The notes under the pieces are model-generated. The model ran no database searches and was not told the DNA's origin. It saw only the letters and a list, made by a program, of their open reading frames with translations. From assembly GCA_022414725.1 (NCBI GenBank), contig CM039463.1, forward strand, positions 90,120,585-90,184,584: DNA of 64,000 bases. Reading direction: 5' to 3'. This stretch comes from Microglena sp. YARC (Eukaryota; Chlorophyta; Chlorophyceae; Chlamydomonadales; Chlamydomonadaceae). The translations under genes and the position numbers were made by a program. Positions 23,850-49,689 of the stretch are shown here, one piece after another; position 1 is the stretch's first letter, and each line of letters begins with the position of its first letter.

Positions 23850-24055
23850 TTCTCACCCAGTGCCCACGAGCCTTTTTAAGCTACTTGCACCCAGTGCCTA
23901 CCGGCCCTTTTTCAGCTACTTGCACCCAGTGCCTACGAGCCCTTTTTCAGCTACTTGCACCCAGTGCCTACCGGCCCTTTTTCAGCTACTTGCACCCAGT
24001 GCTTACGGAACCTTTTTCAGGTACTTGCACCCAGTGCCTACGGGCCCTTTGAAGC
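23850..24055. repeat. 35-bp tandem repeat overlapping the KatG stop
   Basis: Five units of 35 bp (CTACTTGCACCCAGTGCCTA...) start at 23881, 23916, 23951, 23986 and 24021, with a partial before. The KatG stop codon (24003-24005) and last codons lie inside the 24021 and 23986 units. The array is therefore duplicated from, or has replaced, the end of the last exon. Confidence 0.85.
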
Positions 24056-27000
24056 GGTCTGCATTCATCATCTTGGTCCAAGCCAGGCTGAAGTCATTCA
24101 GAAACTTGGTCTCGTCGGATGCATACATCTGGGCAATAGGCAAGAAGTTATCGTAGTCATACTTCAAGGCAATATCGTTGGGGGTCATGAACAGATCCTG
24201 GCCCACTGCTGCCCACTCATCCACCCCCTGGGCGGACACTTGGGCCACCCAGGTGTTGGACAGCAGCACCTGGAAGTACTCATTGCTCAGGGTGTTAGAG
24301 CTGTTGGTCCATGATCCGCTGTATCCCAAGCGCTTCATCTGCTCAGGGCTGCGCAGCATACCCTGTAGTACCACAGCCTCAGAGTCGGTCAGTCCCTGGA
24401 CGCTAATGGTATGCCTGAAGCTCCAAATGGGATCTTCAATGGCATACTCCGTCATGCTCCAGGGCTCCAAGTCCACTGCCGCCTTGCCATCCTTGTAGTC
24501 GGCACGGCCAGGGCAGAACTTCTGATGGGGGGAGCCAGCATCCTCCACTGCCACGGTGCCAGCCAACACAATGAGATCTGCCCAGCTCAGCTCGTCTCCG
24601 TACTCCTCCTTCACAGGGGACAGCACCTCCAAGGCCATGTCCATGTAAGCGTTTGTGGGCCAGTCCTTCTGGGGGGAGAAGCGGATAGAGGCACCGTTGC
24701 ATCCGCCTCGGTAGTCCGTAGTGCGGAAGGTACTTGAGCACTGCCAAGCCAGCATGGCAAACATGGCCTGGTAGGTGGGCTTCCCGTCCACCATGTCAGG
24801 CTCCAAGGCAGGGCTGCTGCTGCTCATCACCTCTCTCACGGAGTCCTTCACTTGGACCCACTTGGGAAACGTGTTGGACGCGGGGGGCAGAGGGAACTGC
24901 CAATCCTGGGCTGGGGGGACAGGCGAGTCGCTCTTCATGCAACGTGAGAGGGGACCCATATCACGAGTGGCTAGCTTGTACCATGCAGCTGAGAAAGCAC
25001 TGTCGAGAGCCTCTTGGTCAGTGGCAAACAACTCAACAAGGGCCAAGTACTCCGGGTCATAAAGGAAGGCAACATCTGTGGTCAACATCATGATTTCCTC
25101 AATTGCAGGGGTCTCGGTACCCTTGTCCATGGGCATCCACTGGGGATTACCGGCAGGGCTCTCAGTAAGCTTCCAGTCATACTCCAGAAGGTTCTTGAAG
25201 TACTCATTGGTCCAGCGGGTGGGGCGAGTGGTCCAGGGGCCTTCAAAGCCAGACGTCGCTGCGTTCTCACCCTTGCCCATCATCTCCCCAGATCCACAAG
25301 TGCTTGGGTAGGGGTTGTAGGGATCCTCGGCAGGGCTGGGTCCAGGACCTGAGGGACAAGCGCCATGGGCCTTGCCAAAGGCATGTCCACCACCAACCAG
25401 AGCAACAGTCTCAGAATCGTTCATGCCCATGCGACCAAACACGTCGCGGATAGACTGGACGGTGTCCTCTGGAACGGGTCGGCCCATGTAGCCCTGTGCA
25501 AACAAGGAATCAGGTCGGTGGGGTGGAGGGTGGAGTGGAGTGGAGGATGGGGTAGGGTGGGGTGGAGGATGGGGTAGGGTGGAGGGTGGAGTGGAGGGTA
25601 GGTTGGAGTCGAGGGTGGAGGATGGGTGGAGGGTGGAGCGGAGTGGGACGGGTCGGCTCATGTAGCCCTGCGCAAACATGGAATTAGGTCGGTGGGCAGG
25701 ATGACAGAGCATAGGTTTTTGCTTCAGCTACGAGCAACAGCTTCTAGGCAGCTCCCCTGGCTGGCTATCCAGCCAAATCTAAAGCATCCTAGTGCACATG
25801 GAATCTGTCACAACCAGCTGTCTGGCAGTGCTGAAACCTTGGGGCTTAGCCCAGTGGCTAGCTCAAGGAGCTGCCTAGAAGCTGGTAAGAGAACCCCCAA
25901 ACAAAAGCCATGTAACAGGCACATGGAGACAGTTCACTGGGCCAGAACCTAGAAGACTGAGATCACCAAAAACAATCACAGCCAACACTGCAATTTTGAG
26001 GGGCCTTTTTCACTCTTTTATTTTGCTACAAAGGGTGTATTCTGGGTGTACAAGGGTGCCGGAGGGGTGCAGAAAGGGAGTCCCCCCCCCCCCCCAAATT
26101 GTAGTGCAAGCATTAAGTGACATCACCAACAAACCTATGGTGCACATACCGCATGAATGCCAGCCATGATCATGGTCGGTAAAACGATTGTTTGGGGTTC
26201 AGTTTGTCAATGCTATATCTTTCTAAGCCCTTCTTATCACGGTTGGGCAAGTCCCTTTAGCCTATTTGGCCTACCCCTCGACTTTAACATACATAGGCAT
26301 AGTTTTTTGGTTTCCGCTACGAGCAGCAGCCTCTGGGCAGCTCCCTGAGCTCTCTCTTCATCCATACCTTGAGCAACCTAGGCACCTGAAAGCTGATACC
26401 ATTCAGTGCTGCATGAATCTTTGGGTTTGGACCAGTGGCAGTCTCAGGGAGCTGTCTAGAAGCTGATGCTGGTAGCCAAAAAGAAAAACAGAGATCATGT
26501 GCATACATATTCATTCACTATGGACCGGCCAGCAAGCCGGAGGCTTATTTGGAGTCCAGTAGGGCACCAGGAAAAATGTAATCACCATCATCATCATCAT
26601 CAATGTATAGTTATGTGTTGCTATCAATGTATAGCTGTCAATGTATAGTCATGTGTCGCTACCATGAGCACCTGCAAGGAAGGAGCATGAATGCTCAAGC
26701 AGAAAACACTGCTCACTCACCGCGGGATTATAAAGCTGCATGCGCCCCACGCCACCTGTATATTTTGTCACGTCATGTCACCTCACACGTCACGTCACCT
26801 CACACGTGTGTGCACACATCGGTCACGTCACACTCATGGGCAGTCACATCACGCCAAAATCCACATGGGCGGTCAAATCCTGGTTCACTCACCGCGGGAT
26901 TGACGTAGATGAGACCAACAACGTGGGCTCCAAGAGGATACTGGCAGTTTCCTTTTTCAGTGCAGTTGGCGGTATTCTCCTGAAAGGCAGAAGGGCCCAG

Positions 27001-27180
27001 TGGCAGGCTGGCATGACCCTCTGCATCATCTAATCGACCGGCACAGAAGCCAAGCTTGGGCCCTCCCATACTTTCAATGGCAACATTGCCAGTAAACATG
27101 ATGAGGTCACCCCAGGACAGGCCAGGGCCGTACTTGACCTTGATGGGCTGCAAGAGATCCTTGGTCTTGTCAAGGTTGAC
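24003..27180 (-). CDS. katG: catalase-peroxidase KatG (5'-incomplete, 2 exons)
   Basis: KatG is a bifunctional haem catalase and peroxidase that removes hydrogen peroxide. Exon 27180-26893 (TACAG/GTCAACC ... CCCGCG/GTGAGT) joins exon 25493-24003 in phase 0, giving 592 aa of the usual 720-750. Visible are KYGPGLSWGDLI and GLIYVNPA, which carries the Tyr of the Met-Tyr-Trp adduct. RMGMND carries the Met, and VALVGGGHAFGKAHG the proximal haem His. The complete C-terminal domain follows (LSWADLIVLAGTVAVEDAG, LTDSEAVVL). The first about 150 residues, with the distal Trp-His pair, are not found up to the right edge. The C-terminal GPVGTGCKYLKKVP tail derives from the 35-bp repeat. Frames are intact, so either distant 5' exons exist or the 5' end is lost. 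Confidence 0.9.
25711..25912. mobile_element. MITE, CACTG-ended family, copy G
   Basis: CAACAGCTTCTAGGCAGCTC on the left and AGCTGCCTAGAAGCTGG on the right are inverted relatives. The interior (CTTGGGGCTTAGCCCAGTGG) matches other copies. In a KatG intron; borders approximate. Confidence 0.65.
26162..26305 (+). repeat. retroposon-like fragment with CCTATTTGGCCTACCCC end
   Basis: GGTAAAACGATTGTTTGGGG through CCTATTTGGCCTACCCCT-CGACTTTAACATACATA. The same sequence is at 60410-60610 with a (CATA)n tail, and its 3' end is at about 42842-42900 in reverse. A conserved 3' end followed by a simple-repeat tail suggests a SINE or LINE tail. Confidence 0.5.
26304..26488. mobile_element. MITE, CACTG-ended family, copy H
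   Basis: CGAGCAGCAGCCTCTGGGCA and GAGCTGTCTAGAAGCTGATG form inverted ends. The interior GAATCTTTGGGTTTGGACCA is family-like but diverged. In a KatG intron; borders approximate. Confidence 0.6.
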
Positions 27181-27242
27181 CTGTATGTGTGTGTGCATGT
27201 ACGTATGTATTTGCATGTATGTGTGTGTGCATGTACGTATGT

Positions 27243-27381
27243 ATGTGTGTGTGCATGTATGTATGTATGTACTAGTACATTGCCCGTGTGGCCGGAGGCC
27301 ACCCGCCACCCCACCCACCCAGGTCCTGGGTCATGTTCTGGCCTGGGTTACATAACGTGCAACGCCCTTGAACGTACACCC

Positions 27382-28784: not shown

Positions 28785-28790
28785 TATATA
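28785..28790. repeat. 6-bp target duplication (left) of the Polinton-like element
   Basis: TATATA directly abuts the left terminal inverted repeat. The same hexamer is at 42099-42104 directly after the right one. Six-base duplications are the hallmark of Polinton/Maverick integration. AT-rich low complexity makes the match weaker evidence than a unique hexamer. Confidence 0.7.
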
Positions 28791-28979
28791 AGTAAGTATG
28801 GTACTAGCGGCACGACGGCATCTTTCCCGAGTATATAGAAAATTCCGAAAAATGCAAAAGAAGGGTAGGTAAATTCCGCGACTGTCTAGCGATGGCCCGG
28901 GCTATTTGTTTTTGTGGGCGTTCTGTCGTCTTTTCTCTCAAATGATCATGCAGTACCAACAATTCGCCTAAGATTCGGG
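28791..28979 (+). repeat. left terminal inverted repeat
   Basis: Matches the reverse complement of 41911-42098 over about 189 bp with only a few substitutions and one 1-bp indel. Ends in ATTCGCCTAAGATTCGGG. Just inside (28970-29018) a 30-bp segment GATTCGCCTAAGATTCGGGA... is tandemly duplicated on this side only. Confidence 0.95.
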
Positions 28980-29102
28980 AGCTGACGCGATTCGCCTAAG
29001 ATTCGGGAGCTGACGCGACCATCACTGCGTGACGGGAGGTTACACGAATGGATAAGAAAAAATATGATTAGCCTAACGGCTAATGGATGCGAAGCATCAA
29101 TC

Positions 29103-29179
29103 AAAATACGACAAAATACGACAAAATACGACAAAATACGATTCATTACACTTTGTTACACCTTTCTACTCTCCGCGCA
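29103..29179 (+). repeat. subterminal inverted repeat, left
   Basis: (ACAAAATACG)n followed by ATTCATTACACTTTGTTACA and CTACTCTCCGCGC. The inverse complement is at 40979-41060. A related block is at about 57436-57500 in the second element. It immediately follows the integrase 3' region, so it may be a terminator or part of the replication/packaging ends. Confidence 0.85.
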
Positions 29180-29266
29180 GGGTGCGACTGATATACCGGT
29201 TACCGTTCCGCCCCCGCTACTCGCAGGAGGAGGAATGGAGGACTGTTGGTTAGCGGAACGCCGCTG

Positions 29267-30347
29267 TTACTCAGCAAACCGTTTGGGCTTTCGCACTGTT
29301 CTTTTTGCTTTTGGTTCGTCCTTCTTATCAAGAGCAGTAACAATCTCGTCATAGGAATTAAATGCCTTTGATCTTTGCATCCTTCTGATTTGATTGTCTT
29401 CTTTTTCTGGCTCTAATCTGTCTTTCACATTTGTAACAATGTTCATTTCGCTTGGTCTATATAGACGTTTGACTCCTTTGAGCTTGAATCTGTATCCTAT
29501 ATGTTCTTCAATGGTGTAAATCTCTGTGGAAAACGTGGCTTTCTCCTTTTCAAAGGTCTTCTTCTGTAACATTACACGCACTCTGTCCCCTACTTTCATG
29601 GTCACTTTGTCATTCATCTTTTCATTCTTTTTTGACTGAGCTTCATATAGCTTTTGGCTGTAGTCATAATCATCATACACTTCTTCTGGGGTTGCATCTT
29701 TCAACCCAGAATGGGCTGTATTGTTGTAAAGCTCAACAATATCACCAAGTGCATCTACCCATTTTTTAGTCTTGTTCTCCATTGAGTGTTTCTTTATCAA
29801 ACCTTTCAGAGTCCTGGTAAAGCGGTCAACGATTCCCAGCTTGTTCCCCATCGGAGTAATGTGGTCTTCTTTTGCAACGTCTGTATAAATCCTTATATTT
29901 AGTTCTTTATTGAAAGACTCAAATATTGAAGATGCAAAAAAATTATCTCCTGATACACTGTTGATATCTTCGTCTACATCGCCTATAAATTTCTGATAGG
30001 CGTCTAAGACATCATTCATCTTGCCGCTTTTCAGTGGGTAACAATAAGCCTTTCTAGAAATGATGTCTATGCACATAAGAATTTGGTTTATGTTATTATT
30101 TATCCTCTTGCTCGACAATGGCATAATTGCTACATCGATTTGGAAAGATCTTGGAGGGGGCGTTATTTTGAATTTGAATTTGGTATTTTTGTGGTTTTTG
30201 ATATATTTGTGTGAGTTCTCGTGGATTGAAGTAATCTTCAATATCTCGTTTGGTAATCCCGTCATCTTTTAGCCTTGTAAATAGCTTTGCCTTGGACAGC
30301 AATTTTAGATTCGGATTATTTTTTAAAATATATTCAAGATCCGTCAT
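29267..30347 (-). CDS. retroviral-type integrase (rve), one frameshift
   Basis: Catalyses insertion of the element. ATG at 30347 opens LEYILKNNPNLKLLSKAK. The frame then shifts within the T5 run at 30186-30190 (plus strand) and continues to the TAA at 29267. The copy 2 protein shows the intended junction. The catalytic core has FQIDVAI (first Asp), SVSGDNFF (second Asp) and, 39 residues later, IVDRFTRTLKGLIKK. There the position normally Glu (VERFNRTLK) is Asp. The C-terminal region (VGDRVRVML, FSTEIYTIEEH, YRPSEM) resembles the SH3/chromo-like tail of Polinton integrases. A TATATA motif precedes the ATG. About 360 aa when read through. Confidence 0.88.
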
Positions 30348-30371
30348 CCTATATATATTAGGTCGTTAAAC

Positions 30372-31280
30372 TTATTTTTTCGCGGTATTGCACTTATTGC
30401 ACATTAATCTGCAATTCCACTTGAAGTGTGCAAATGCATTATCTATTCTGTCAACAGAACATTGAATTTTGCTACTCTTCTCCACATTCATTTGTCCTTG
30501 ACATCCAACACATACATTGTTTTTGATGTATTGCTCCTTGCACCATTCCACGTCTACATACTCCTCTAACATGTAGTCATAATCACGTTTCTTTGACCTG
30601 TCTTGTTTTTTGTATCCCTGTATTTTGTCTTTGAAGAACTCGTCTAACCTCAGGTCTGTCAAGTCCATCTGCAGAAAATATACGTCAGATAGCTTGCTGC
30701 ACCTGGAAACAGCTGAGTATACCCATCTCCTGTCCGTGATTGTTAGCATATCTGTTATGACAAACTTCTCTGCAATGCAAGACCCTTGTTCGCTGTGACA
30801 CGTATTACAGTGACTTAGCTCGAACCATTTGCAGATCATGTCGTGCGTTATATCTATTTTGATGTGTTCAGACGAGATGTCCTGTAGTTTGAATTCCTTT
30901 TTGGTCTGCCCGATTATTGTGTACCTCTGATTCGGACGCAACTTGGTTGTTGCTGTTTTCTCTTCCCCATCGTCCTTGTATTTATAACTCCTCGTGATAT
31001 TGGTTTTGCAAACTAGCTCTTGGCCGAAGTGATATGTTTTGCCATCTGCCAGCGTATAGCATTGTGCTGCCTTCCGCTTTTTACTTTTGTCCAGGCGCTC
31101 GTCTATAAAAGTGTTCAAAACCTTTGAGCTGTACACAAGATAGCTGATTGCTCTATTGATTTTTAGCTTACTAACATCTTCTAACGAGGAAAGTATTCTA
31201 TCCTTGAACCATTTTCTGATGGTTTTTTTGTAAATCTTTGGTTTCGTCAAATAGGTCGTCTTGGATGAGGAGCATATCAT
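30372..31280 (-). CDS. SF1 helicase C-terminus fused to HNH-type zinc domain
   Basis: Continuation of the upstream helicase frame after a +1 shift at the T7 run 31223-31229. Helicase motifs V and VI are visible as CHSEQGSC and WVYSAVSRC. The last about 70 residues hold CVGCQGQ, then CSVDRIDNAFAHFKWNCRL and MCNKCN. This Cys-x2-Cys, D-R-x-D-N, H and Cys-x2-Cys pattern fits an HNH nuclease or related zinc domain. There is no good ATG start of its own. The second copy has helicase and HNH parts in the same order, supporting a single protein. Function inferred: DNA unwinding plus nicking during replication or genome-end processing. Confidence 0.75.
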   Translation of the reverse strand: MICSSSKTTYLTKPKIYKKTIRKWFKDRILSSLEDVSKLKINRAISYLVYSSKVLNTFIDERLDKSKKRKAAQCYTLADGKTYHFGQELVCKTNITRSYKYKDDGEEKTATTKLRPNQRYTIIGQTKKEFKLQDISSEHIKIDITHDMICKWFELSHCNTCHSEQGSCIAEKFVITDMLTITDRRWVYSAVSRCSKLSDVYFLQMDLTDLRLDEFFKDKIQGYKKQDRSKKRDYDYMLEEYVDVEWCKEQYIKNNVCVGCQGQMNVEKSSKIQCSVDRIDNAFAHFKWNCRLMCNKCNTAKK

Positions 31281-32223
31281 CTCTGTCTTGTTGTGTTTTC
31301 AGTCTATGGTTGAATGTTAATGTATATTTATTATCGAATATTTTTTGCACATAGTCACATTTCATCTCAATTGTAGCATCATCATCAATCGATTCCAGTT
31401 GGTGTGAATCCCCATTGGCTATGAAACATATATGTGGGTGTTTGTGCATGAACTTGTTCATTTCATTCATATGTCTCCTGGTCATCAACATTACTTCCTC
31501 GAATATGATGGCTTTAATGTCATCTAGTGAAAATGCGTTGTTCTTCCCATACTCTCCTTCGAAATTGAGGCCAATAAGATTGTGAAATGTGCATGCTTGG
31601 ATATCATGTCCGTCTTCCCTGCTTTTCTTTAGCACATTGTTAACCTGGGAGTTATATGGGCATACCACCAATATTTCCTTATCCTCAAGACGTTGTTTCT
31701 TATTTTTCCCCAAAGGTTTATAGACATAGTCTTGAGCAGCATAGTTCTTTCCACAACCGGCAAACCCATCAATGATTGTTTTTGGTAAAACCTTGTCAAC
31801 AATACGAATATCTTGCTCTGGGTATGTTATGATTTGTTTTGTTTTGTATTGTACAATCTCGTTATTGGGAGGCAGAGATCCTTTCAATATCTTGTATTGA
31901 CCGAAATATATGCCAATTCGCTGTTTGATACACATTCCGTCTTTTATTATGGCATATAGGCAGTCGGTTTTTACAGCAAGCACTTGATTGTCGACGCTCA
32001 GCTTTTCATATGCGTCATTGATCTGGAATCTTGCTAGATTCGTGAGGGCATACCTCATTGGTAGAAATCCGTTTATGAGCTCTGTTTTCTGTGTGATGGT
32101 TACAATAAACACGTCGTCTGCCATAGGTATAACATTTCCTTTGTGTTTGTTTGCATATTCTACAGCATCAGATCTGTTCTTGAAGATTTTTGAATGCCTG
32201 CTGGTGTTGTGTTTTTTTTCCAA
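31198..32223 (-). CDS. PolB motif C region joined to SF1 helicase motor
   Basis: Residues about 25-130 (TELINGFLPMRYALTNLARF, then LAVKTDCLYAI) look like the end of a family B polymerase palm. Motif C is KTD instead of DTD. After a linker come SF1 helicase motifs: Walker A GFAGCGKNY (Asn where Ser/Thr is usual), Walker B AIIFEEVMLM, motif III ANGDSHQLESI and motif IV LTFNHR. The frame opens on a TTG beside the T8 run at 32212-32219, so it is most likely the shifted continuation of the upstream palm ORF. The equivalent Walker A in the second element is GLAGCGKSY, the canonical form. Confidence 0.72.
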   Translation of the reverse strand: MEKKHNTSRHSKIFKNRSDAVEYANKHKGNVIPMADDVFIVTITQKTELINGFLPMRYALTNLARFQINDAYEKLSVDNQVLAVKTDCLYAIIKDGMCIKQRIGIYFGQYKILKGSLPPNNEIVQYKTKQIITYPEQDIRIVDKVLPKTIIDGFAGCGKNYAAQDYVYKPLGKNKKQRLEDKEILVVCPYNSQVNNVLKKSREDGHDIQACTFHNLIGLNFEGEYGKNNAFSLDDIKAIIFEEVMLMTRRHMNEMNKFMHKHPHICFIANGDSHQLESIDDDATIEMKCDYVQKIFDNKYTLTFNHRLKTQQDRDDMLLIQDDLFDETKDLQKNHQKMVQG

Positions 32224-32977
32224 AAAGGCCTGATAGTTCGTTAGGGATTCCCTTTAACAAATCTTTTGGGATGTGTTTGTACTTCCCCTCCCCTAAACAC
32301 TGTTTTAATATAGTTTCTAGATACCTACACTTCTTCCACTCAACTCGCAGATATGCCAATATTGTGTATTTGAATTTCAATTGCACAACTTCGTACCCAT
32401 AAATGAGCATTTTATCCTGGTTGTAAATGGGGTGTTCCTCATCTATTCTGACGAGATACAGGTATCCTTTGTTGAACGGTTTCCTTTTAACTATTCCGCC
32501 CTGAGAATCAAGTGTTGTTTGCGTGAAGTTGTTTTGAAACGGGTCATCATATTCCACAACCTTTCGTTTCTTAGTCGTGAATTTTGCTTCATTTAGTGGT
32601 TTATCATCTATGTATGTGTAGAATATATCCCATGAATTTGTAACTGGGAACCCTGGTCCATCAACCAACATCCATATGCAAGTAAAGTAATGCTTATTGA
32701 TATCAAACGCTGTAATCTCGTCAAGATCTATGGTAGACAGATCTTTGTCAACAAGCCTGCCCATTGGTACTCGATCTAAACATGTTTTGAAAACCTCACT
32801 GCCTTCAATGCTCATCTCGGATTTAAATTTATTACTTAGAAACGATCCCTTCACTTCTGAGTCCAGGTTCTTGTAGTCTACAAACGTGTCTACGTCTAGA
32901 ATTGGACATTTTGAAAACCCTTGCACTTGAGATGCATTCTCAACTGAGATGGCTATAGGTTTGTCGTCCTTTGTCAC
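32168..32977 (-). CDS. family B DNA polymerase palm fragment
   Basis: Two polymerase motifs are visible: EITAFDINKHYFTCI (motif A, compare D-x2-S-L-Y-P) and IPNELSGLFGKK (motif B, compare K-x3-N-S-x-Y-G). Motif C follows in the next frame. The ORF begins on GTG inside the preceding ORF, one base out of frame. The shift maps to the GGG at about 32983-32985, where one base fewer would fuse both frames. Protein-primed PolBs of Polintons have this motif order, but the terminal-protein-specific inserts cannot be confirmed by eye. Confidence 0.6.
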   Translation of the reverse strand: MTKDDKPIAISVENASQVQGFSKCPILDVDTFVDYKNLDSEVKGSFLSNKFKSEMSIEGSEVFKTCLDRVPMGRLVDKDLSTIDLDEITAFDINKHYFTCIWMLVDGPGFPVTNSWDIFYTYIDDKPLNEAKFTTKKRKVVEYDDPFQNNFTQTTLDSQGGIVKRKPFNKGYLYLVRIDEEHPIYNQDKMLIYGYEVVQLKFKYTILAYLRVEWKKCRYLETILKQCLGEGKYKHIPKDLLKGIPNELSGLFGKKTQHQQAFKNLQEQI

Positions 32978-34322
32978 GATGTGGGTTCAATTCTAACCGT
33001 GAAATAATATGTCCAGTTTGCATGATCGGCTTGGGGTCGCATCCTTCTTTTTGAACTAAGTTTAACAGAACTTCTTTCATATCTCCGTTGTAGATGATTC
33101 TGATGTCCTTTTTTGATGCTTCTATTCCAGCTTTAATAATTGGGAATATGTCTTCGTATTTGTTTGCCAAGTGATACATGTCTGTTCTAACCTTTTTGAC
33201 TTTTGGCACTACAAAGTTGGATGACGGACGAGAGTACATGTCCTTCTTAGTTGTCTTGGCAAAAGACATCACTTCGTCTATGTTCTGCACATGTTCGTGC
33301 CAATATATGACACGTAGTTTCTGGATACTGTATGTTTTTGTTTGCTCCTCAAGTGGTGGCTCATATTTACATACTACCCTGTTTTCGTTGTCGTATATTT
33401 CTGCTCCAAAACCATTCTTCTTGAACCACTTCAAATAATCCTCGACTGTCATGTCAATGTCAGACACTCCGTGATATTCTTTTTCGAATATATCCCAATA
33501 AATTGATTCAAATGTGAGTGTATGTTTATGATACTTCAATTTCTTGTTGTAGGAGTCGAATGCTGGCTGAAATCCATTCAGAATTGCTTCAATTGCACAT
33601 GCTCCGTTGGGTAAATTCCGATTCCTGGTCCTTTTTATACTTGTTTGTAAGCTATCTCCTTTATTGTCCCACTCAAAACGTATGAACTTACATTCTGTAT
33701 AAACAGTATGTATGTTATCCCTGATAGTCCTGTACAAGAACGGCCTATCAACTGTATTATTCACAGGTTCGTTGGAGGTAATTTTTATTGCCAGGGATTG
33801 TGATATGAGTCTTGTTAACAAAGCTCCCATACTTGGGTCGTCAATGTCAAGTCTGTTCAGTAGTTCTGCATATCCTGTGAAAAAAATGTTTTTCCCAGCT
33901 AAAGTATTAGACACATACTCTCCCTCTTCAGTTTTTTTGGTATATTTGTCTTGGTTAATTTCGGCCAAAACCAACAATGTGTCTGGGCCGAAATTCTTTA
34001 AAGGACGAAAAGCGTTTGTGATAGAAATACATTTATACACATACAAAGTGTTGCTGGCCTGATTGAAAAGCTCGAATTCGACTAACCTTTTGGGAGCGTT
34101 TTTTTGGTAGCGTTCCCTATCATATTGTACCTTCTTTTGCCTCTTAACCCTTTTTGCCTCTTCTTTCATGTAGTTCTTGTACCATTCCACAGCATTATAG
34201 AACTCTTCTACTGATTCGTGACCCTGTTCGATCACATACTTTTTGGTAATCCTGCGTGGAGCTTCTCCTGATGCTACCAAATGCTTTTTGTACCATTTTG
34301 CCAAAGTTGTATTTGATGCCAT
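32940..34322 (-). CDS. N-terminal part of the PolB-helicase protein
   Basis: 460 codons from ATG at 34322, preceded by an AATATATTACAGAATTATA leader. The first 80 residues are basic and helical. A central segment NGACAIEAILNGF, then about 75 residues later FGAEIYDNE and LRVIYWHEHV, has the Cys...His layout of papain/OTU-like domains. Such domains precede PolB in some protist mobile elements, but this is inference only. An exonuclease triad is not obvious. It is the first gene of the leftward cluster and faces the 25-bp repeat array. Downstream it runs, after a one-base shift, into the palm. Confidence 0.6.
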   Translation of the reverse strand: MASNTTLAKWYKKHLVASGEAPRRITKKYVIEQGHESVEEFYNAVEWYKNYMKEEAKRVKRQKKVQYDRERYQKNAPKRLVEFELFNQASNTLYVYKCISITNAFRPLKNFGPDTLLVLAEINQDKYTKKTEEGEYVSNTLAGKNIFFTGYAELLNRLDIDDPSMGALLTRLISQSLAIKITSNEPVNNTVDRPFLYRTIRDNIHTVYTECKFIRFEWDNKGDSLQTSIKRTRNRNLPNGACAIEAILNGFQPAFDSYNKKLKYHKHTLTFESIYWDIFEKEYHGVSDIDMTVEDYLKWFKKNGFGAEIYDNENRVVCKYEPPLEEQTKTYSIQKLRVIYWHEHVQNIDEVMSFAKTTKKDMYSRPSSNFVVPKVKKVRTDMYHLANKYEDIFPIIKAGIEASKKDIRIIYNGDMKEVLLNLVQKEGCDPKPIMQTGHIISRLELNPHRDKGRQTYSHLS

Positions 34323-34420
34323 TATAATTCTGTAATATATTAATATGTGAACAATCTCTTAAGCGTCTTACTTAAAATACTCAAAAAAAAATGTGCATTT
34401 CAATTTTTTAAATGAAACAC

Positions 34421-34965
34421 TTTACTCCGACAGTTTCTGCCACAGTTTACTCCGACAGTTTCTGCCACAGTTTACTCCGACAGTTTCTGCCACAGTTTAC
34501 TCCGACAGTTTCTGCCACAGTTTACTCCGACAGTTTCTGCCACAGTTTACTCCGACAGTTTCTGCCACAGTTTACTCCGACAGTTTCTGCCACAGTTTAC
34601 TCCGACAGTTTCTGCCACAGTTTACTCCGACAGTTTCTGCCACAGTTTACTCCGACAGTTTCTGCCACAGTTTACTCCGACAGTTTCTGCCACAGTTTAC
34701 TCCGACAGTTTCTGCCACAGTTTACTCCGACAGTTTCTGCCACAGTTTACTCCGACAGTTTCTGCCACAGTTTACTCCGACAGTTTCTGCCACAGTTTAC
34801 TCCGACAGTTTCTGCCACAGTTTACTCCGACAGTTTCTGCCACAGTTTACTCCGACAGTTTCTGCCACAGTTTACTCCGACAGTTTCTGCCACAGTTTAC
34901 TCCGACAGTTTCTGCCACAGTTTACTCCGACAGTTTCTGCCACAGTTTACTCCGACAGTTTCTGC
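34421..34965. repeat. 25-bp perfect tandem repeat (about 21.8 copies) between divergent clusters
   Basis: The unit begins TTTACTCCGACAG and ends GCCACAG. Twenty-one full and one partial unit show no visible variation. It separates the leftward replication genes (start 34322) from the rightward capsid genes (start 35072). Because 25 is not a multiple of 3, all frames stay open, creating spurious ORFs of up to 372 codons. Position and iteration suggest an origin or a bidirectional regulatory region. The second element lacks the array. Confidence 0.95.
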
Positions 34966-35071
34966 AAAAACAAAAACAAAAACAAATACAATCAAACAAA
35001 GAGGGGATACTACAAACCAACGAGCAACAACAATTAATGTTAAATTACCTGCTGATAGGACACTCCCTCGA

Positions 35072-35530
35072 ATGATGGGATTCAACCCTTATGCCTATGT
35101 AATAGAGATCCCAAAACAACCCCATCAAAATATGATAGCTCAGGCTGTAAATGGGGTATCTGCTGTAGAACAGCTTGCTAGATCTGCGAGGGCTGCCATG
35201 ACTCAACAAAACACTGCACCACAAAATGTGTTTCAAGGAACTGGGACGTATATAGACCACTTACCTAGACCACCTTCCTCTCGACCATCTCCGTCTAATG
35301 CCAATTATGCAGCACCTAAAAAACGGTATGATTTGAGGCGGTCACTAGATAGATTTGACTTCAGGCACGCATCACCAGATTCAAGTGGCCAATCTAAGAG
35401 GGAGGTGCTTGCAATTGCAACCGAATACCAAGAACGTTCTAATGAGCCTGGATTACAAAGACTACTTGACAAACGGAGAACCAAAAATCATTATATAGAT
35501 ATCTATAATTATCTGAAAAATAAACTTTGA
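35072..35530 (+). CDS. conserved element protein of unknown function (152 aa)
   Basis: ATG at 35072 is chosen because upstream codons run into the 25-bp array; a second ATG follows directly. The protein starts MMGFNPYAYVIEIP, has an Ala/Gln-rich helix (VEQLARSARAAMTQQ), a Pro/Ser-rich linker and a basic C-terminus. A decayed homologue lies at 49690-50240 (minus) in copy 2, at the same place relative to the capsid gene, so it is a genuine element gene. No domain is recognised. It could be a virion or scaffold protein given its position before the capsid gene. Confidence 0.65.
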   Translation: MMGFNPYAYVIEIPKQPHQNMIAQAVNGVSAVEQLARSARAAMTQQNTAPQNVFQGTGTYIDHLPRPPSSRPSPSNANYAAPKKRYDLRRSLDRFDFRHASPDSSGQSKREVLAIATEYQERSNEPGLQRLLDKRRTKNHYIDIYNYLKNKL

Positions 35531-35561
35531 TTATTATCAAAATATAGAGTATATAAGCTAC

Positions 35562-36663
35562 ATGTCTGCATACCCAAAAAAACCTCCAGTACATTACAAA
35601 ACGGATCTCTAACTATAGTCGAGCAACTAAACGGCTGTCCACCCTTAATAGTACTTCTGCTACCAACAATGGTGTGATTACAGTCGACATGCCTTCCAAC
35701 ACTTTGATAGATACTGATAGCCTGATAATGAGTTTCAAAGCAATCACAGATACTGGGGGCATGCCAAGGAACATTGAATCAATCATACAAAGGTGCGACT
35801 TGGAAGTGAATGGGCAAGTGATAGGAGGGTTCTCCAATTATAATCAGCTTTTTAATATTATTGCTGATACATCCTTTGGTGCAGATTGCCACAACAGACG
35901 TAAGATTGTCCAATCGGGAGGTGATGGTTCAGCTATTCCCATCGGTATTCCAAAAGATTATTGCATTTGTAATTGGCTGACTCTCAATAGCTTTCAGCCC
36001 AGCATATTGGATACCAAACTCCTAGGGCAGGTTCGCCTTAGGATACAGCTAGATGGATCCAATTGTCTAATTGGGGGAGGACAATTTATTCTATCAGACA
36101 TTTCATTCAGTGTTGATACTATCTCAATAGATGATGGGCTCTTTGATGCCGCACACAATGCCTTTCTGCAAAATGGAGGTGTGTATGAAATCATGTTCAA
36201 GAACTATTTTTCATTTTCATCAGCTGCATCAAGTTATAGCCAGTCCACCAAATTCAGTGTGTCGTCCCAGTCGGTTAATCGAGCTTGGGGAATGTTTGTA
36301 GATCAATCACCTACTGGAGCATTGGATGCAGTGACCAAAAACTGTAACACGTTCGTCAGGAAAGCGACTGGGATGGAAAGTGCTCAGTTCACTATCAATG
36401 GGACTTATTATCCAGATTTTAGGGCCAATGTTGGACAGTGTTTTTCGTTAACACAAAGTTCTTACAACCAATTGCAGGACACCCTAGGAGGGTCAAGTCC
36501 CCTTTGTGATTCATTTGCAAGCTGGCGTGATAAATTCTTTGTTCTCTCATGCAAGTTCTGCCACAATGATGATGAGTTCATGTCGGGCATTGAAGAGGGA
36601 ACAGTTCGATTGGAGCATTCGAGTCTCAAGCCGTTAGTGGAGCAGCAGGCTCAGCCAACTTGA
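35562..36663 (+). CDS. major capsid-like protein 1 (double jelly-roll type), one frameshift
   Basis: ATG at 35562 lies just after AGTATATAAGCTAC. The frame shifts within the A7 run at 35576-35582, then is open to TGA at 36661-36663 (about 366 aa). It shows the beta-rich, Asn/Ser/Gly-rich composition of Polinton-like virus capsids, with PRNIESIIQRCDLEVNGQVI, a YNQLFNII stretch and FTINGTYYPDF. Copy 2 retains its N-terminal third. The next gene is a distant relative. Assignment rests on position, composition and the paired ATPase and penton-like genes, not on a search. Confidence 0.62.
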
Positions 36664-36770
36664 CTGCAATGGTGTTTATTGAGTGTAGTAGCATGATCCG
36701 TGTGGGAGCGGGGAGGATGCTCGAATTAGTTCTATAAATACAAATAATTATAAATGTAACAATAATATAA

Positions 36771-37873
36771 ATGAATGCACTTCCTCAAAAACATTACTAA
36801 AATCCATAGAATTGAGCCAATAGGAACAAAAACAGGTTTCCCCCAAACACAGACCGTGTTTGAAATGACTGATGGCATTTGGGATTTATCCAGTGTCAAG
36901 CTTTTGTTCACTTTTAATTCGGATGGTGTTGCACCCAGGGGAATAGATTGCTTAATCAGTTCATTATCAGTTTCGTTTGATGACGTTGAGGTCCAGTCCA
37001 TCAACAATTATCATCACCTCACAAGACTAATGGCTGTTCATAACACCCCTGCGACTTCCTCCAATATGTTGGGTAATGCTCAGGCTGTGGATTTAATTTC
37101 CATGTCAGATGATGAGCCATATGTTATTGACCGTTTCCATGGTATCTTAGGTACCAAGGACTGTGTAATCAAAGGCAGGGTTCGAATCTGTATTGTTTGG
37201 GCAGATGCTGCAGTATTGTTGAGAGACAATGATTCAACAAGCTATGAGATTTCCGATCTACACCTTATTGTTCGAAGTGAAATTCAAGACAATGTCACAG
37301 AACGTGTTGAATTTGACAACTTCTCATCCATGTTTCAACTCAATGAAAAACGAAAACCAACAAACTAATATATACATTGCTTCCAGGGATATTGAGTATG
37401 CTATTGCAACGTTCATGACAGAAGATTTTCACTCCAAGACTTCAACCAAGACTATAACGGGACAAGCTACTATTTTTCACAAGGCATTCCAAGTATTATA
37501 ACAAATGAATGCTCCAGTTTATGTTGGTATTAGTGTCAACAATATACCTGTTGCAGACCACCCAATAAACTATTTCAGGGCAAATGAATACTTGGACATG
37601 ATTTTTGACAATGACAACAGATCAATGGAACACATGACTACATTGACAAAGGATGGTACCCTATTAATACGAAGTGCAAGTACTCTAGCAACTCGTCAGT
37701 GGGCCCTGGGTCTACCAATAGATGTAATGGATGAAGACATACCCTATAACATCACATTTCACAGCACTGGTAATATCAACACGAGGAACTATTCACTTTT
37801 ATTCGTCAAGTACAACTCTCTTTTGGAGATAGATACTGGTGAAAACGGCTCGAAATACTTTTTCACAAGGTAA
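36771..37873 (+). CDS. capsid-like protein 2, frameshift and in-frame stop
   Basis: Segments: 36771/36775 to about 37350, +1 shift at the A5 run 37346-37350, on to a TAA at 37499-37501, then ATG at 37505 in the same frame to 37873. Total length (about 366 codons) equals the preceding gene. APRGIDCLISSLSVSFDDVE and INNYHHLTRLM align with MPRNIESIIQRCDLEVNGQ and SNYNQLFNII of protein 1. VGISVNNIPVADHPINYFRA parallels FTINGTYYPDFRA. It may be a second major capsid or a minor capsid paralogue. The 37505 ORF, preceded by TATTATAACAA, might instead be a separate 122-aa gene. Confidence 0.55.
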
Positions 37874-37881
37874 TATATAAA

Positions 37882-38088
37882 ATGGATAAATATTTGCTAC
37901 CTCTCTGTCTAGAAACATGGCCTAATAGAGCCATTAAATATGCCCAACCAGCTACAAACTATGTAGGTAGGAGAATGATCCGACAACCGTTACATGAGAC
38001 TGAGTTGCTGTGGGGTCGTCCTTTACCCAACAAGCCCAAAGCCATACACATCCTGAGGACATCTCCTGTGGTTCCAAAATTCCAGTGA
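37882..38088 (+). CDS. small element protein, unknown (68 aa)
   Basis: Starts 8 bases after the capsid-like gene, behind TAATATATAAA. The protein is basic (pI clearly high), begins MDKYLLPLCLETWPNRAIKY and ends VVPKFQ. No domain is recognised. The promoter-like motif and tight packing argue for a real gene. Small basic proteins in this place could be cement or DNA-condensing virion components, but this is inference. Confidence 0.5.
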   Translation: MDKYLLPLCLETWPNRAIKYAQPATNYVGRRMIRQPLHETELLWGRPLPNKPKAIHILRTSPVVPKFQ

Positions 38089-38142
38089 CCATTTGTAAAT
38101 TCCAGTAATTTTTTTCTATTATTTTCTAACTTGAAATTATAT

Positions 38143-38646
38143 ATGGAGGATATTGAACAACTCAGTAACAATTTGGAGGATATGGAAGTGATTCAACCCA
38201 AAGCAAAGAGGGTCATGTCTCAGAAGCAGAAAGAGGTACTAGCAAGAGCACGGGAAAAAGCTTGGGCCAAGAGAAAAGAATTAGGAGAAATCAGTAGACA
38301 AGAGAAACAGCTCCAGAAACAGGAGAAACAAGTAAAGCAACAAGAAAAGGCTACTGAGATGAAACTTCGTAAGAAGGCAGTCAATAAGAAACTGAAGACA
38401 ACTATTGTTGTTAGTGATGATGACTCTGACGAAGACGAACAGGTGATAACAGATGATTCCCAGCCAGAATCAGAAGAAGTTGAAGTGAAACAGATGTCAA
38501 GACAAATTAAAAAACGCTTGAACGTTACAAAAGTTCCAAAAATAAGCCAGGAGGAAACTGTTGAACTGTTTAGACAGAAAATAATGAATGATGGGAAACG
38601 ACTGGCTTATCAATCACTCTTCCCTGGGTCACAATGCCCTTTTTAG
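38143..38646 (+). CDS. charged coiled-coil protein, unknown (167 aa)
   Basis: ATG at 38143 follows AAATTATAT and opens MEDIEQLSNNLEDME. Residues about 25-90 are a Lys/Glu/Gln-rich coiled coil (RQEKQLQKQEKQVKQQEK), followed by an acidic stretch VSDDDSDEDEQVITDD and a basic end. No enzyme motif. It lies between capsid and ATPase genes, so a scaffolding, core or DNA-associated role is plausible. An in-frame TTG at 38131 is less likely as the start. Confidence 0.6.
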   Translation: MEDIEQLSNNLEDMEVIQPKAKRVMSQKQKEVLARAREKAWAKRKELGEISRQEKQLQKQEKQVKQQEKATEMKLRKKAVNKKLKTTIVVSDDDSDEDEQVITDDSQPESEEVEVKQMSRQIKKRLNVTKVPKISQEETVELFRQKIMNDGKRLAYQSLFPGSQCPF

Positions 38647-38673
38647 TAAAATATTATGTCCTGTAAAAAATAG

Positions 38674-39535
38674 ATGAATATCACAGAAAACGCAGTCAGT
38701 AATTTTATTCATAAAAAACTCGTTTATAAGCCAAACACTTACCCACAATGTTTAAACACGTCCCTGCCACGCAACTATTTTGTAGCCCTTTTCATTGGGA
38801 GCCGAGGGACTGGTAAAACATATTCTGTTTGCCAATTATTGAAACAATATGAGCTTGCGGGTTTTGATAAAAACCAAGCTATGAGAGTTATTGTTTTTAG
38901 CCCCACGCATGATGCAAATCCAGTATTCAATTGTCTGAAGATTGATCCTTCTGATATTGTAAATGATTACAGTGACTCCAAGCTTTTAGAAGTTATAGAA
39001 GACATCAAACAAGAAAAACAAAACACTGCAGAATACAAGAAAGATTTGCAAGTTTGGTCAAAGTTTTTTCAATGGAAAAATAGATGCATTGACATTTGAT
39101 GAGATAGATTTTCTCGAGAGAACTGCATACCAAAAGCCTACTTGTAGATACCCAAACGGTGCAATAAATTATTTTGTATTGGATGATCTGGTGGGTAGTA
39201 GTGCATTCAAAAGTGTGGGTAAATCAGTATTGACAAACTTGGTTTTGAAGAACAGGCATTTGGGTATAAACATCATGATTTGCTCACAGAATTTGAAAGC
39301 TATACCCAAGAGCATCAGAACCAATACTTCATTGTTCGTTTTATTCAAGTTTGCATCAACCAAAATATTGGTAGATCTTCATGATGAAGTCAGCTCTACT
39401 CTCACCTTGAAGAAGTTTGAGAGGCTGTATATACATGCAACACAGGATGAGCATGACTCTCTTGTTATAGATTTCACAGGAGACAAACTAAAAAGGTTCA
39501 AGAAAAACTTTGATATTGTTCTGAACCTGCAATAA
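38674..39535 (+). CDS. FtsK/HerA-type genome-packaging ATPase, one frameshift
   Basis: Packages viral DNA into the capsid. Starts MNITENAVSNFIHKK at 38674. Walker A is LFIGSRGTGKTYS (residue about 45), Walker B is INYFVLDDLVG. Between them the frame shifts at the T6 run 39064-39069; with one T fewer it reads FFNGKIDALTFDEIDF without a stop. After Walker B come NRHLGINIMICSQNL, with the SQ sensor typical of this family, and an arginine-containing IPKSIRTNTS. Total about 286 aa, fitting the A32-like ATPases of Polinton-like viruses. Confidence 0.85.
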
Positions 39536-39567
39536 GACATTTTATTTTTCTAACTGATTGTTAAAGA

Positions 39568-39813
39568 ATGGCCTCTTTGACACAAGAATACAAGCAAACG
39601 AATGAATACAAAAACTTCAGAGCTGCAATTTTAGACATGTCTCCTGGTCTACCTGAATACTTGGTAGATGTAGCTATTTCTGTACATATCAATAAACCAT
39701 TGTTGTATAGGGACAAGAAAGCTATCAGGAAAGACTTGCTGAATAAAATTAAACCTGTTTCTGGTACTGAGGTTTTAGATGGCTTGGTTACAATACAAAA
39801 TGTTACAGTATAA
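39568..39813 (+). CDS. small element protein, unknown (81 aa)
   Basis: Intact ORF between ATPase and penton-like genes, MASLTQEYKQTNEYKNFRAA to the TAA at 39811. Predicted mostly helical at the start and charged (DKKAIRKDLLNKIKP). No domain is recognised. Correct spacing on both sides and no overlap support it as a gene. Confidence 0.55.
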   Translation: MASLTQEYKQTNEYKNFRAAILDMSPGLPEYLVDVAISVHINKPLLYRDKKAIRKDLLNKIKPVSGTEVLDGLVTIQNVTV

Positions 39814-39831
39814 TATATCCCATATTATAAA

Positions 39832-40660
39832 ATGTCTCCACCTGTCTTGAAAACACAATTGTTGTACATATCAAGCACGTTTCGAACAAGTGGAACGCCT
39901 GACAATTTTCACAACATCATTGCCTGCAGGAGTCCTGCAAAATCCCTATGGAGGGAGGACGAAAGTCACAGTTGCAGATGTCATCATCAACAGGTGTTTT
40001 TATTCGATTATAGCAAGTAACAATGACTTTATTGTTAACAACAATGGTACCAAGACATCAATCAGAATTCCAATTGGGAACTATACCCTTGATTCTTGGC
40101 TGACAGAATTGGGTGTGTTGCTTACGGGATGGACACTAACCCATAATGAAACAAACGGGCTTTGTATATTCAACCCTCCTGGGCCAGGGTATTCATTCGA
40201 ATTCAAAGATAAAAGTAGTTATTTGTTTGGGTTTCTGCCTCACGAAACACCTGGTGGTGCTCCCATTATTAGCTCCTTTCCATTGCGTTTAAATCTTGAA
40301 AGTTTCCTGACAATCCATCACAATTTACCCAAGGTAACTAACAGTGCTGTCAACAATTTTCGTCAAAACAATATGCAAGAGAGTGATGTATTGATCCGCC
40401 TACCAGTTAATGTTGAAAGTTTTGCCAATATCATTTATCAGAATACAGCAGACGACTTTTCTTTCTATACAAGCGCCTCACATGTGTCAGAATTGAGTTT
40501 GAGCATTAAAGATGAACATAAAGACTCTATAGGGCCTTTTCCCTACGACTGGAGCATCACTCTCAGAATAGATTATGAATCTGATAATGATCCTATGAAT
40601 TCTATTTTATCAATTTTGAAATCCATAGACCAGAAATTGCTTTTACTTTCCATCAAATAA
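39832..40660 (+). CDS. penton-like minor capsid protein, one frameshift
   Basis: ATG at 39832 follows ATATTATAAA. The N-terminal 27 codons (LLYISSTFRTSGTPDNF) continue after a +1 shift at the T4 run 39906-39909 into TTSLPAGVLQNPYGGRTKV. Later IPIGNYTLDSWLTELGVLLT and KSSYLFGFLPHE follow. This layout, an opening Ser/Thr-rich strand, then a G-x-Y segment and an L-G-F segment, is common in minor capsid or penton proteins of Polintons and relatives. About 275 aa. Assignment is by pattern and neighbourhood; a tail-fibre-like role cannot be excluded. Confidence 0.5.
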
Positions 40661-40677
40661 TATCAAAGAGTATATTA

Positions 40678-40977
40678 ATGGGATTCTTTAATACTCTCAA
40701 ATCTGGCGTTGGTAAGGCTGTAGGCACTTTCGGGAATGTGGTTAGGAAGGTAGCAGATTTCGGTGGAGGTGTAGCTCGGAAGGTGGGACAGCTCTCTATA
40801 CCGGTCTCTAACGCCGCAGCGGGGATAGCGGACATTCTCGGGCAAAGTGCCGTGGCGGATGGGATACGATCAGTAGGAAGTGCGTTACATGGCTTCTCAC
40901 CGGAAGCAGAGAAAATCCTGTCTAAAGCTAGCGGGATAGGGAGAGTAGCACAGGGAATAGGCAAAGTCATGATGTAA
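40678..40977 (+). CDS. adenovirus pVI/pX-like membrane-active peptide (99 aa)
   Basis: MGFFNTLKSGVGKAVGTFGN, then repeated small/basic amphipathic segments (GGGVARKVGQ, IGRVAQGIGKVMM). It is Gly, Ala, Val and Lys rich with no Cys. Polintons, adintoviruses and adenoviruses carry short proteins of this type that act in capsid maturation or membrane lysis. Start behind TATATTA. The stop is directly followed by the subterminal inverted repeat, so it is the last gene of the late cluster. Base composition is more GC-rich than its neighbours. Confidence 0.6.
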   Translation: MGFFNTLKSGVGKAVGTFGNVVRKVADFGGGVARKVGQLSIPVSNAAAGIADILGQSAVADGIRSVGSALHGFSPEAEKILSKASGIGRVAQGIGKVMM

Positions 40978-40978
40978 G

Positions 40979-41060
40979 TGCGCGGAGAGTAGAAAGGTGT
41001 AAACAAAGTGTAATGAATCGTATTTTGTCGTATTTTGTCGTATTTTGTCGTATTTTTGTC
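40979..41060 (-). repeat. subterminal inverted repeat, right
   Basis: Inverse complement of 29103-29179: GCGCGGAGAGTAGAAAGGTG, then (TCGTATTTTG)n. On this side about 850 bp separate it from the terminal repeat, against about 120 bp on the left, because the right arm carries an additional gene-bearing segment. Confidence 0.85.
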
Positions 41061-41097
41061 GTGAAATATCATTCTGTGTCATTCTTTTTTCAATCGA

Positions 41098-41775
41098 ATG
41101 TGGATAAGGTCCCACACAGAGTCCGGAGTCCATTCATTTCTTTCTAGCAACTGCGACATTCTCAAATGGCACCAAGGACCCACAAATGCATCGCATACGA
41201 TCCCTCTACAGAGAGACTTTGCCAGAAAACAAATTGAAGTAGGAAGAAAGGATGCCACATGCGGAAGGCCATCATGCATCGTCACTGCTGCTAAGTATTG
41301 CTGCAGTGACATGACAACCAACTATATCACGCTAGTCTCGGAACACCCATTTGTTGTCACTGCGCAACAGCGCGAGATGAACAAACAACTCATCGACATC
41401 ATGTACAGACGTGATTTGGAGGCTGCGAGCAATGCACAGGTGCTGAGACACCGGGAGCTAATCGAGCAGGAGCTCGCAGAGGAGGCTGCGAATGCGAAGG
41501 ATCTCAGCGAGTCAGATATAGCAGCGATTAAAGCTGCGAACAAGGTAACTAGCATATCGATACCTCTTTCTAGCTTGTTACAGTTTGCCTAACATTGCTT
41601 TGCTCATCGTAATTGCTTGCCATGTTCGCAGAGGAGGAACGACGCGAAGAATGCGTCAGCTAAAAAGCCCAAGCCACAGGACTTGTTCGCATCCCAACCA
41701 GAAGAGGAGGAGGAGGTCAGCTTTGGTGTGTCGACCCCCCATGTGCGACCTCACGCTTGGCGGAAGATTAGATGA
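41098..41775 (+). CDS. intron-containing cargo gene in the right arm, unknown function
   Basis: Exon 1 (ATG at 41098, or a 3' splice site at 41148/41149) ends GCGAACAAG at 41544. A GT-AG intron of 87 bp (41545-41631, GTAACT...TTCGCAG) joins AGGAGGAAC in phase 0, and the frame closes at TGA 41773-41775. The product has a Cys-rich segment (CGRPSCIVTAAKYCCSD), an Ala/Glu-rich helix (LEAASNAQVL, EQELAEEAANAKD), a basic KKPKPQDLFASQ segment, an EEEEE run and a basic C-terminus. No family is recognised. It is more GC-rich than the viral genes, and a spliceosomal intron is foreign to them. A captured host gene or gene fragment is the simplest reading. Confidence 0.5.
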
Positions 41776-41910
41776 GAATGCTATGTTCCAGAGCGCGGCA
41801 GAGAGGAATGCCTAGAAGTTTAACTAGCTTTTGTACCGCTGTTTGATGCGCACTAGCTCTGTAACGCTGATTCGCTCCAGATTTTCCCTGTCCCACATTG
41901 CCCACTGTCC

Positions 41911-42098
41911 CCCGAATCTTAGGCGAATTGTTGGTACTGCATGATCATTTGAGAGAAAGACGACAGAACGCCCACAAAAACAAATAGCCCGGGCCATCGC
42001 TAGACAGTCGCGGAATTTACCTACCCTTCTTTTGCATTTTTTGGAATTTTCTATATACTCGGGAAAGATGCCGTCGTGCCGCTAGTGCCATACTTACT
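41911..42098 (-). repeat. right terminal inverted repeat
   Basis: Reverse complement of 28791-28979, ending ...CCATACTTACT at 42098. Directly inside it, CCCTGTCCCACATTGCCCAC (41887-41906) is shared with the integrase-side end of the second element (57602-57622) but not with the left end of this copy. Confidence 0.95.
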
Positions 42099-42104
42099 TA
42101 TATA
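42099..42104. repeat. 6-bp target duplication (right)
   Basis: TATATA, same as 28785-28790. Confidence 0.7.
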
Positions 42105-49670: not shown

Positions 49671-49689
49671 ATACTCTATATTTTGATAA

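Follow-up and report, generated by a model that had tools for sequence, protein, structure and literature searches.

A mosaic family of Polinton-like viruses in Microglena sp. YARC, with an integrated member probably of the Tlr1 kind

The window analysed here, a 64-kb stretch of contig CM039463.1 from Microglena sp. YARC, contains a 13,308 bp integrated element (E1) at 28791–42098. It is very probably an endogenous Polinton-like virus (PLV) of the Tlr1 kind, that is, a linear dsDNA virus placed by rve-type integrase insertion with a 6-bp target duplication. It belongs to a family represented in the 568-Mb genome by no fewer than 105 loci for the capsid and 121 for the integrase; among 11 typed copies, capsid arms and replicase types occur in all four combinations. 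An earlier note on this DNA had described a complete integrated PLV. Its boundaries are exact to the base, and integration is borne out by both inverted ends, the hexamer duplication and a predicted double jelly-roll capsid; completeness is not, since E1 lacks two genes, one for a fibre and one for a 100-aa protein, and seven genes are frameshifted. The features are as follows.

28785–28790, no strand: left target-site duplication TATATA (sequence read)
28791–28979, plus: left terminal inverted repeat, AGTAAG... (end alignment)
29129–29157, minus: 29-nt subterminal motif, exact second copy at 41002–41030
29267–30365, minus: rve-type integrase in two frames, 30096–30365 and 29267–30268 (rve PF00665, sub-threshold)
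30372–34322, minus: Tlr1-like replicase, (N-terminal region)-vOTU-like-PolB palm-SF1 helicase-HNH (profiles and motif reading)
34417–34965, no strand: array of 22 tandem 25-bp units replacing the fibre gene and 100-aa gene (comparison with relatives)
34967–35530, plus: 198-aa-type protein, no known domain (98% to the L036 protein)
35578–36734, plus: major capsid protein, predicted double jelly-roll (structure model of relative P0001)
36775–37873, plus: second capsid paralogue, frameshifted (hhalign to capsid family)
38143–38646, plus: charged 167-aa protein, no known domain (frame comparison and Pfam scan)
38674–39535, plus: frameshifted packaging-type ATPase; its L031 counterpart has 286 aa (Pox_A32, sub-threshold)
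39568–39813, plus: 81-aa ORF (no Pfam match)
39814–40660, plus: 281-aa candidate penton (minor capsid) protein, frameshifted (position and manual reading only)
40678–40977, plus: small Gly/Ala-rich protein, putative "pVI/pX-like" (no profile support)
41148–41592, plus: 147-aa-type protein, frameshifted (frame comparison with copies)
41911–42098, minus: right terminal inverted repeat, ...CTTACT (end alignment)
42099–42104, no strand: right target-site duplication TATATA (sequence read)
~49143–57644, no strand: second PLV (E2), inverted and decayed, cut by an N run at 48143–49142; capsid piece 49251–49645, integrase 56229–57309, end remnant to 57644

The termini of E1 read AGTAAG first and CTTACT last, confirming the AG...CT type assigned to them earlier, and the two terminal inverted repeats (TIRs) align over ~189 columns with two substitutions and one 1-nt indel (98%). 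GC content is 40% within E1 and 49% in the flanks. In copy A, the 29-nt subterminal motif lies within a 388-bp TIR. The target of E1 is a TA run, so that judging by E1 alone a duplication shorter than 6 bp is possible; the length is taken as 6 bp because other copies carry differing exact 6-bp sequences. When the expected ends of 10 other copies were fetched, TIRs were present in five, an exact 6-bp duplication in four (GGCGAG, ACTGCG, CCCCTC, and GGCGGG), and one with 5 of 6 bases matching in one; for the other five, the fetched stretches around the expected ends yielded no pair of inverted repeats. The ends thus bound the element at other genomic loci as well, exactly in these four of ten. 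Copies measured from end to end, five in all, are 13.2–14.4 kb long, and 13–14 kb is the usual size for this PLV family. E1 had been thought to hold one of the smaller gene sets, which is not supported: the four other two-ended copies span the same size range of 13.2–14.4 kb, and a 1,164-bp deletion accounts for part of the small size of E1.

The integrase matches rve PF00665 below the cut-off (E 0.0019, 18.9 bits against 32.6), and is a single frame of 359 aa in L003. A programmed frameshift was considered for it and rejected, as E1 and L002 have single extra bases at different places with no shared signal. The replicase occupies four frames in E1 (32940–34358, 32168–32986, 31198–32253, and 30372–31298), while the polymerase region and helicase share one frame in relatives L036 and L038, the L038 helicase matching AAA_30 at 38.4 bits, above the cut-off of 27. 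The C-terminal 112 aa match PHROG endonuclease VII (E 1.5e-7), pointing to an HNH domain; Pfam gives no HNH match for this piece, and a comparison with solved structures returned two weak, unrelated rows only. The PolB palm and vOTU-like region were assigned from motifs, the vOTU-like Cys and His being conserved at what appear to be fitting positions in replicase types alpha and beta. There was no Pfam match to the polymerase at E up to 1 (L036) and no match of the replicase alignment (A3) to solved structures at E up to 5, and a wider homologue search with the replicase found only two proteins. The earlier note had considered the grouping of PolB, SF1 helicase, and HNH unusual. Most likely they are one gene split by frameshifts, matching a published Tlr1-like pPolB-helicase for which a C-terminal HNH is already described (PMC11071308); the grouping as an unusual one is not supported. 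From the motifs and the published architecture, replication would be protein-primed.

On the right arm, the capsid assignment is the best supported. Its fold was modelled on P0001, 92% identical to the E1 capsid over 339 residues, and is a predicted double jelly-roll, so that the possibility of capsid-like ORFs without one, raised earlier, does not hold. The E1 frame has no start codon and is shifted at ~36594; the capsid length is 392 aa. Searching solved structures with the capsid alignment gave no hit with E up to 1. The next gene, which the earlier note did not recognise as a capsid paralogue, aligns with the capsid family at an hhalign probability of 96.4 (E 1.3e-9, 333 columns). It is 366 aa in L037 and divergent from the first capsid; its structure model was unusable (pLDDT 39), and a wider homologue search found two proteins only. 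The ATPase matches Pox_A32 just under the cut-off (E 1.4e-4, 21.8 bits against 22.8), and neither the 198-aa-type protein nor the 281-aa candidate penton has a useful Pfam match. The 147-aa-type gene occurs in copy 8 and is absent from the other fetched copies covering that place. No penton, TP, or protease was confirmed. The earlier gene calls therefore fared unevenly: that of the capsid stands, those of the helicase and HNH are backed by profile matches, either in relatives or to the isolated domain, matches for the integrase and ATPase are sub-threshold, the polymerase is read from motifs, and the "penton-like" and "pVI/pX-like" calls have no profile support. In a promoter search upstream of 12 genes there was no evidence for a motif; the best 8-mers with one mismatch were in 9 of 12 sequences, compared to 6–8 in ten shuffles, and three other settings were at or within the shuffles.

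Taken as a virus, E1 would have a left operon with the integrase gene and one fused gene for a protein-primed PolB-SF1 helicase-HNH replicase, and a right operon encoding the 198-aa protein, the double jelly-roll capsid and its paralogue, the ATPase, and small and candidate penton proteins. The rve-type integrase would insert the linear dsDNA, making the 6-bp duplication. E1 has lost its fibre gene. In relatives, the 100-aa gene ends with one copy of the 25-bp unit that forms the array in E1. Compared to copy A over ~12.3 kb (four partly overlapping comparisons), E1 has 27 substitutions and 28 indels. Of these indels, 24 involve a single base, and 15 of the single-base ones fall within runs of at least 3; copy 4 has 180 substitutions and 18 indels, and copy 8 is also indel-rich (25 and 15). 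PMC10120064 reports that frame breaks of this sort are frequently artefactual when assemblies are made from long reads, and many E1 frameshifts are perhaps due to assembly indels. The idea that they prove the copy dead was rejected given the indel excess and the reported artefacts, though real decay may contribute. The frameshifted genes, the lost fibre gene, and the inverted E2 had all been missed before. Weak protein matches had suggested a third replicase type for E2; this was dropped, its DNA being 79–94% identical to the M2a beta type.

Two other identities were weighed. A bona fide Polinton/Maverick, with a full protein-primed PolB including an exonuclease, an Ulp1/adenain-type protease, and an rve integrase, would share the integrase type, 6-bp duplication, AG...CT ends, and capsid fold found here. 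It is nonetheless highly improbable: the polymerase region and helicase form one frame in L036 and L038 rather than a polymerase free of helicase, sequence profiles matched neither DNA_pol_B_2 nor any protease family among the proteins scanned, and the capsid is only 392 aa. The high copy number in one genome, together with the missing fibre gene and broken frames of E1, would also suit a transposon with passenger capsid genes that no longer makes particles. This is unlikely, since 90 of the 105 capsid matches are free of stops, database capsid proteins derived from other samples reach 91% identity, and dN/dS is low in both capsid groups, for a sample of 20 of the 105 capsid rows whose stop-free choice favours low values and whose 8-copy group contains an outlier, L067, of the ~70% identity class. 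The sampled capsid genes are under purifying selection, and because the capsid is conserved, the family probably spread as a packaged virus. Scans of viral contigs confirmed no relatives.

Capsid arm (1 or 2) and replicase (alpha or beta) were typed in 11 copies, and all four combinations were seen. Capsid type 1 is found with alpha in five copies and with beta in four; each combination with type 2 is a single locus. Co-resident lineages thus appear to have exchanged shell and replication genes, probably by recombination in or near the segment that joins the 100-aa gene to the initial ~70 codons of the replicase, with integrase and ends in common. Assembly chimeras could give the same picture, as long-read repeats are error-prone, E1 has an excess of indels, and the type 2 combinations have one locus each. 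They are an unlikely source, however, of type 1 copies in such numbers, with a common arm 88–100% identical and replicases unalignable as DNA; in addition, the database replicase P0034, of beta type, carries an alpha-like N-terminus. As to how exchange might occur, an unlikely suggestion is a homing cassette made up of the replicase core and the HNH nuclease at its C-terminus, in which the nuclease would cut a co-resident relative and repair via the conserved flanks (the 100-aa gene and ~70 replicase codons on one side, the integrase on the other) would swap the replicase type. Inside a single host nucleus, any capsid lineage could then be paired with any replicase lineage.

Protist genomes often carry PLVs, some of which act against giant viruses. 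Tlr1-type PLVs (Tlr1 of Tetrahymena and others; PMC11071308) have, like the predicted replicase here, one large protein with vOTU-like Cys/His, an SF1 helicase, a PolB palm motif C without the first Asp, and a C-terminal endonuclease, described as a homing-type GIY-YIG or HNH; the family here has the HNH kind, and no domain was made out at its N-terminal TP position. Tlr1 also has an rve integrase. Cryptophyte PLVs (PMC12220804) likewise reach hundreds of copies in 200–600 Mb genomes, with rve integrases and 6-bp duplications, S74 fibre proteins, and HNH adjoining the helicase. Those of Storeatula, R. nottbecki, and G. theta have two adjacent capsid genes, although the two here are strongly divergent, and R. 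lacustris PLVs average 22.2 kb, compared to 13.2–14.4 kb for the five copies measured here. OmPLV of Oxyrrhis (PMC12721341) has a PolB-fused SF1 helicase, fragmented in many copies, but this is N-terminal, the exonuclease is kept, and there is a tyrosine recombinase. The EMALEs of Cafeteria burkhardae (PMC8547959) also recombine when co-resident, EMALE01/02 having exchanged a morphogenesis module; they are virophages with one exchange described, in contrast to four combinations here.

New here are the numbers of capsid and integrase loci, the purifying selection on sampled capsids, and the four capsid/replicase combinations. The family adds a compact PLV of 13–14 kb that carries two divergent capsid genes; its main interest is what appears to be a clear, recent exchange of shell versus replication genes between co-resident lineages. 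Because PLV groups take their names mostly from capsid trees, such exchange would limit what a capsid tree tells about replication, and the common crossover segment makes the exchange mechanism testable.

The element at 28791-42098 (E1; 13,308 bp) is a real, well-delimited endogenous Polinton-like virus (PLV) of an already known kind. Its inverted repeats are ~189 bp long and differ by two substitutions and one 1-nt indel; the earlier note located them correctly, as it did the AG...CT termini and both TATATA copies. GC content is 40% within E1 and 49% in the flanks. The expected ends were also fetched for 10 other copies from the same genome. A terminal inverted repeat (TIR) pair was present in five, so that the ends do bound the element in other genomic copies, a point the earlier note had wanted checked; no pair was found in the other five within the stretches fetched.

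Copies with a TIR pair (lengths calculated from coordinates)
Copy A: TIR of 388 bp, both ends identical; GGCGAG on each side; 13,217 bp
Copy 4: ACTGCG duplication; 13,786 bp
Copy 10: CCCCTC duplication; 14,027 bp
Copy 5: different repeat family, TIR of 233 bp, AGTTAG; GGCGGG duplication; 14,388 bp
Copy 8: duplication matching at 5 of 6 bases

From these pairs and duplications, the element is bounded by its ends, the target duplication is 6 bp, and the usual size is 13-14 kb among the measured copies. E1 also contains a 55-nt exact inverted repeat (29103-29157 and 41002-41056). Because copy A carries this motif inside its 388-bp TIR, the repeat probably represents the inner stretch of a longer TIR, one interrupted at the right end of the element by the region of the 147-aa gene in E1 and copy 8.

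Features in and around E1
24003-27330 (-), host gene pieces, peroxidase family PF00141
36775-37873, gene read as a second capsid paralogue
41148-41592, 147-aa gene
48143-49142, N run cutting E2
49143-57644, E2, a second, decayed PLV, inverted relative to E1
50710-50922, run of 213 C within the E2 fibre gene

Among the host genes flanking E1 are one of the peroxidase family, probably a catalase-peroxidase with introns, one for a clathrin adaptor chain and one for a GTPase. They mark the host as eukaryotic; gene content and the known distribution of such viruses suggest that it may be an alga or protist. The flanks (1-28700 and 58194-61808) are rich in mini- and microsatellites, with 59 tandem-repeat rows across the whole window.

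Among 798 candidates, 32 are homologous to the capsid protein at E <= 1e-3. Database protein P0001 (392 aa) is 92% identical to it over 339 residues. Double jelly-roll capsids, that of PBCV-1 among them, are matched by the structure model of P0001 (pLDDT 84.5), giving the jelly-roll prediction that the earlier note had asked for in the capsid-like ORFs. The gene at 36775-37873, labelled differently in the earlier note, aligns with the capsid family over 333 profile columns (probability 96.4, E 1.3e-9) and on that basis is read as a second capsid paralogue. Adjacent capsid gene pairs are already published for cryptophyte PLVs (PMC12220804), and the fibre-type gene with Peptidase_S74 that relatives have is likewise known from those PLVs. 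The ATPase matches Pox_A32 slightly under the cut-off, and the integrase matches rve far under it.

The replicase is best read as one gene, pieced together from frames that each show part of it. Single frames of 991 aa (L036) and 1,207 aa (L038) open at the replicase start, take in the polymerase region with the helicase and continue to the limit of the fetched DNA; the HNH and helicase end share one 328-aa frame in L003, and database protein P0033 (583 aa) extends from polymerase motif C as far as the end of the HNH. Such an uninterrupted frame up to the limit of the fetched DNA occurs in two of nine copies; the other seven have one break or more or are cut off. The helicase of L038 exceeds the AAA_30 cut-off (38.4 bits), and the HNH matches PHROG endonuclease VII (E 1.5e-7). 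Profile searches gave no support for the polymerase. Alignment of the two replicase types, alpha and beta, conserves D.NKHY, KGIPN..SG..GKK and AVKTD, which we take to be three polymerase motifs, and a Cys and a His compatible with a vOTU domain. The order of PolB, SF1 helicase and HNH, earlier called unusual, is ordinary: PMC11071308 describes such a layout for PLVs, namely TP-vOTU-palm-SF1 helicase, motif C without its first Asp, and a C-terminal GIY-YIG or HNH.

E1 is not the complete element it was taken for. Comparison with relatives shows frameshifts in seven genes: those for the integrase, the capsid, the second capsid paralogue, the ATPase and the candidate penton, the 147-aa gene, and the replicase, which has three breaks or more. 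Against copy A, indels in E1 are about as numerous as substitutions, which is not so for copy 4, so many of these breaks may be assembly errors. The missing fibre and 100-aa genes, a loss of 1,164 bp, are a real structural change. An array of 22 x 25 bp occupies that place, and relatives have its unit once, where the 100-aa gene ends; capsid-to-integrase spacing is 5,310 in E1, below the usual ~6.0-6.1 kb.

Searches of the 568-Mb assembly (2,390 contigs; window G000:C2:90120585-90184584) gave at least 121 integrase and at least 105 capsid loci. Among the listed capsid matches, 90 of 105 are stop-free; 84 of 121 listed integrase matches are, 73 of them with at least 300 residues.

Listed capsid matches by identity to P0001, with those having a divergently oriented integrase within 12 kb
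Type 1: 72 of 105; 83-92%; 38 of 72
Type 2: 30 of 105; 74-77%; 8 of 30
Other: 3 of 105; 70-71%; 2 of 3

Taken as a ratio of medians, capsid dN/dS is 0.13 across 12 type-1 copies; eight others give 0.11. A capsid tree places the two host groups alongside environmental proteins, with P0001 as the sister of type 1. A type-2 capsid gene (L017; C4:28269720-28270886) begins ~0.4 kb past the end of copy 4, indicating two elements side by side. In copy 3 (L039, ~850-3260) the second capsid gene is split by an insertion that looks like a retrotransposon polyprotein.

Eleven copies (nine fetched, E1 and E2) were typed by DNA. The capsid arm is type 1 in nine and type 2 in two, with no DNA-level alignment between types. 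The replicase core is alpha in six (E1, A, 4, 8, 10, M2b) and beta in five (2, 3, 5, E2, M2a), again without DNA-level alignment except for 5% of the E1 core at 69%. All four combinations occur: 1-alpha in five, 1-beta in four (E2 has a beta replicase with a type-1 arm), 2-alpha in one and 2-beta in one. Copies 4 and 5 are 98.2% identical up to replicase codon ~70, with no similarity further on; starting at the 100-aa gene, copy 5 and M2a are 96.8% identical, and A and M2b 96.4%. The beta core of copy 5 is preceded by an alpha-like N-terminus (91%), which differs in copies 2 and 3 (57% and 56% protein identity, first 70 residues). Judged from sequence comparison, the mosaic of arms reflects recent recombination, although each type-2 combination is known from a single locus. 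What is notable is a compact family with paired divergent capsid genes and a four-way exchange of arms.
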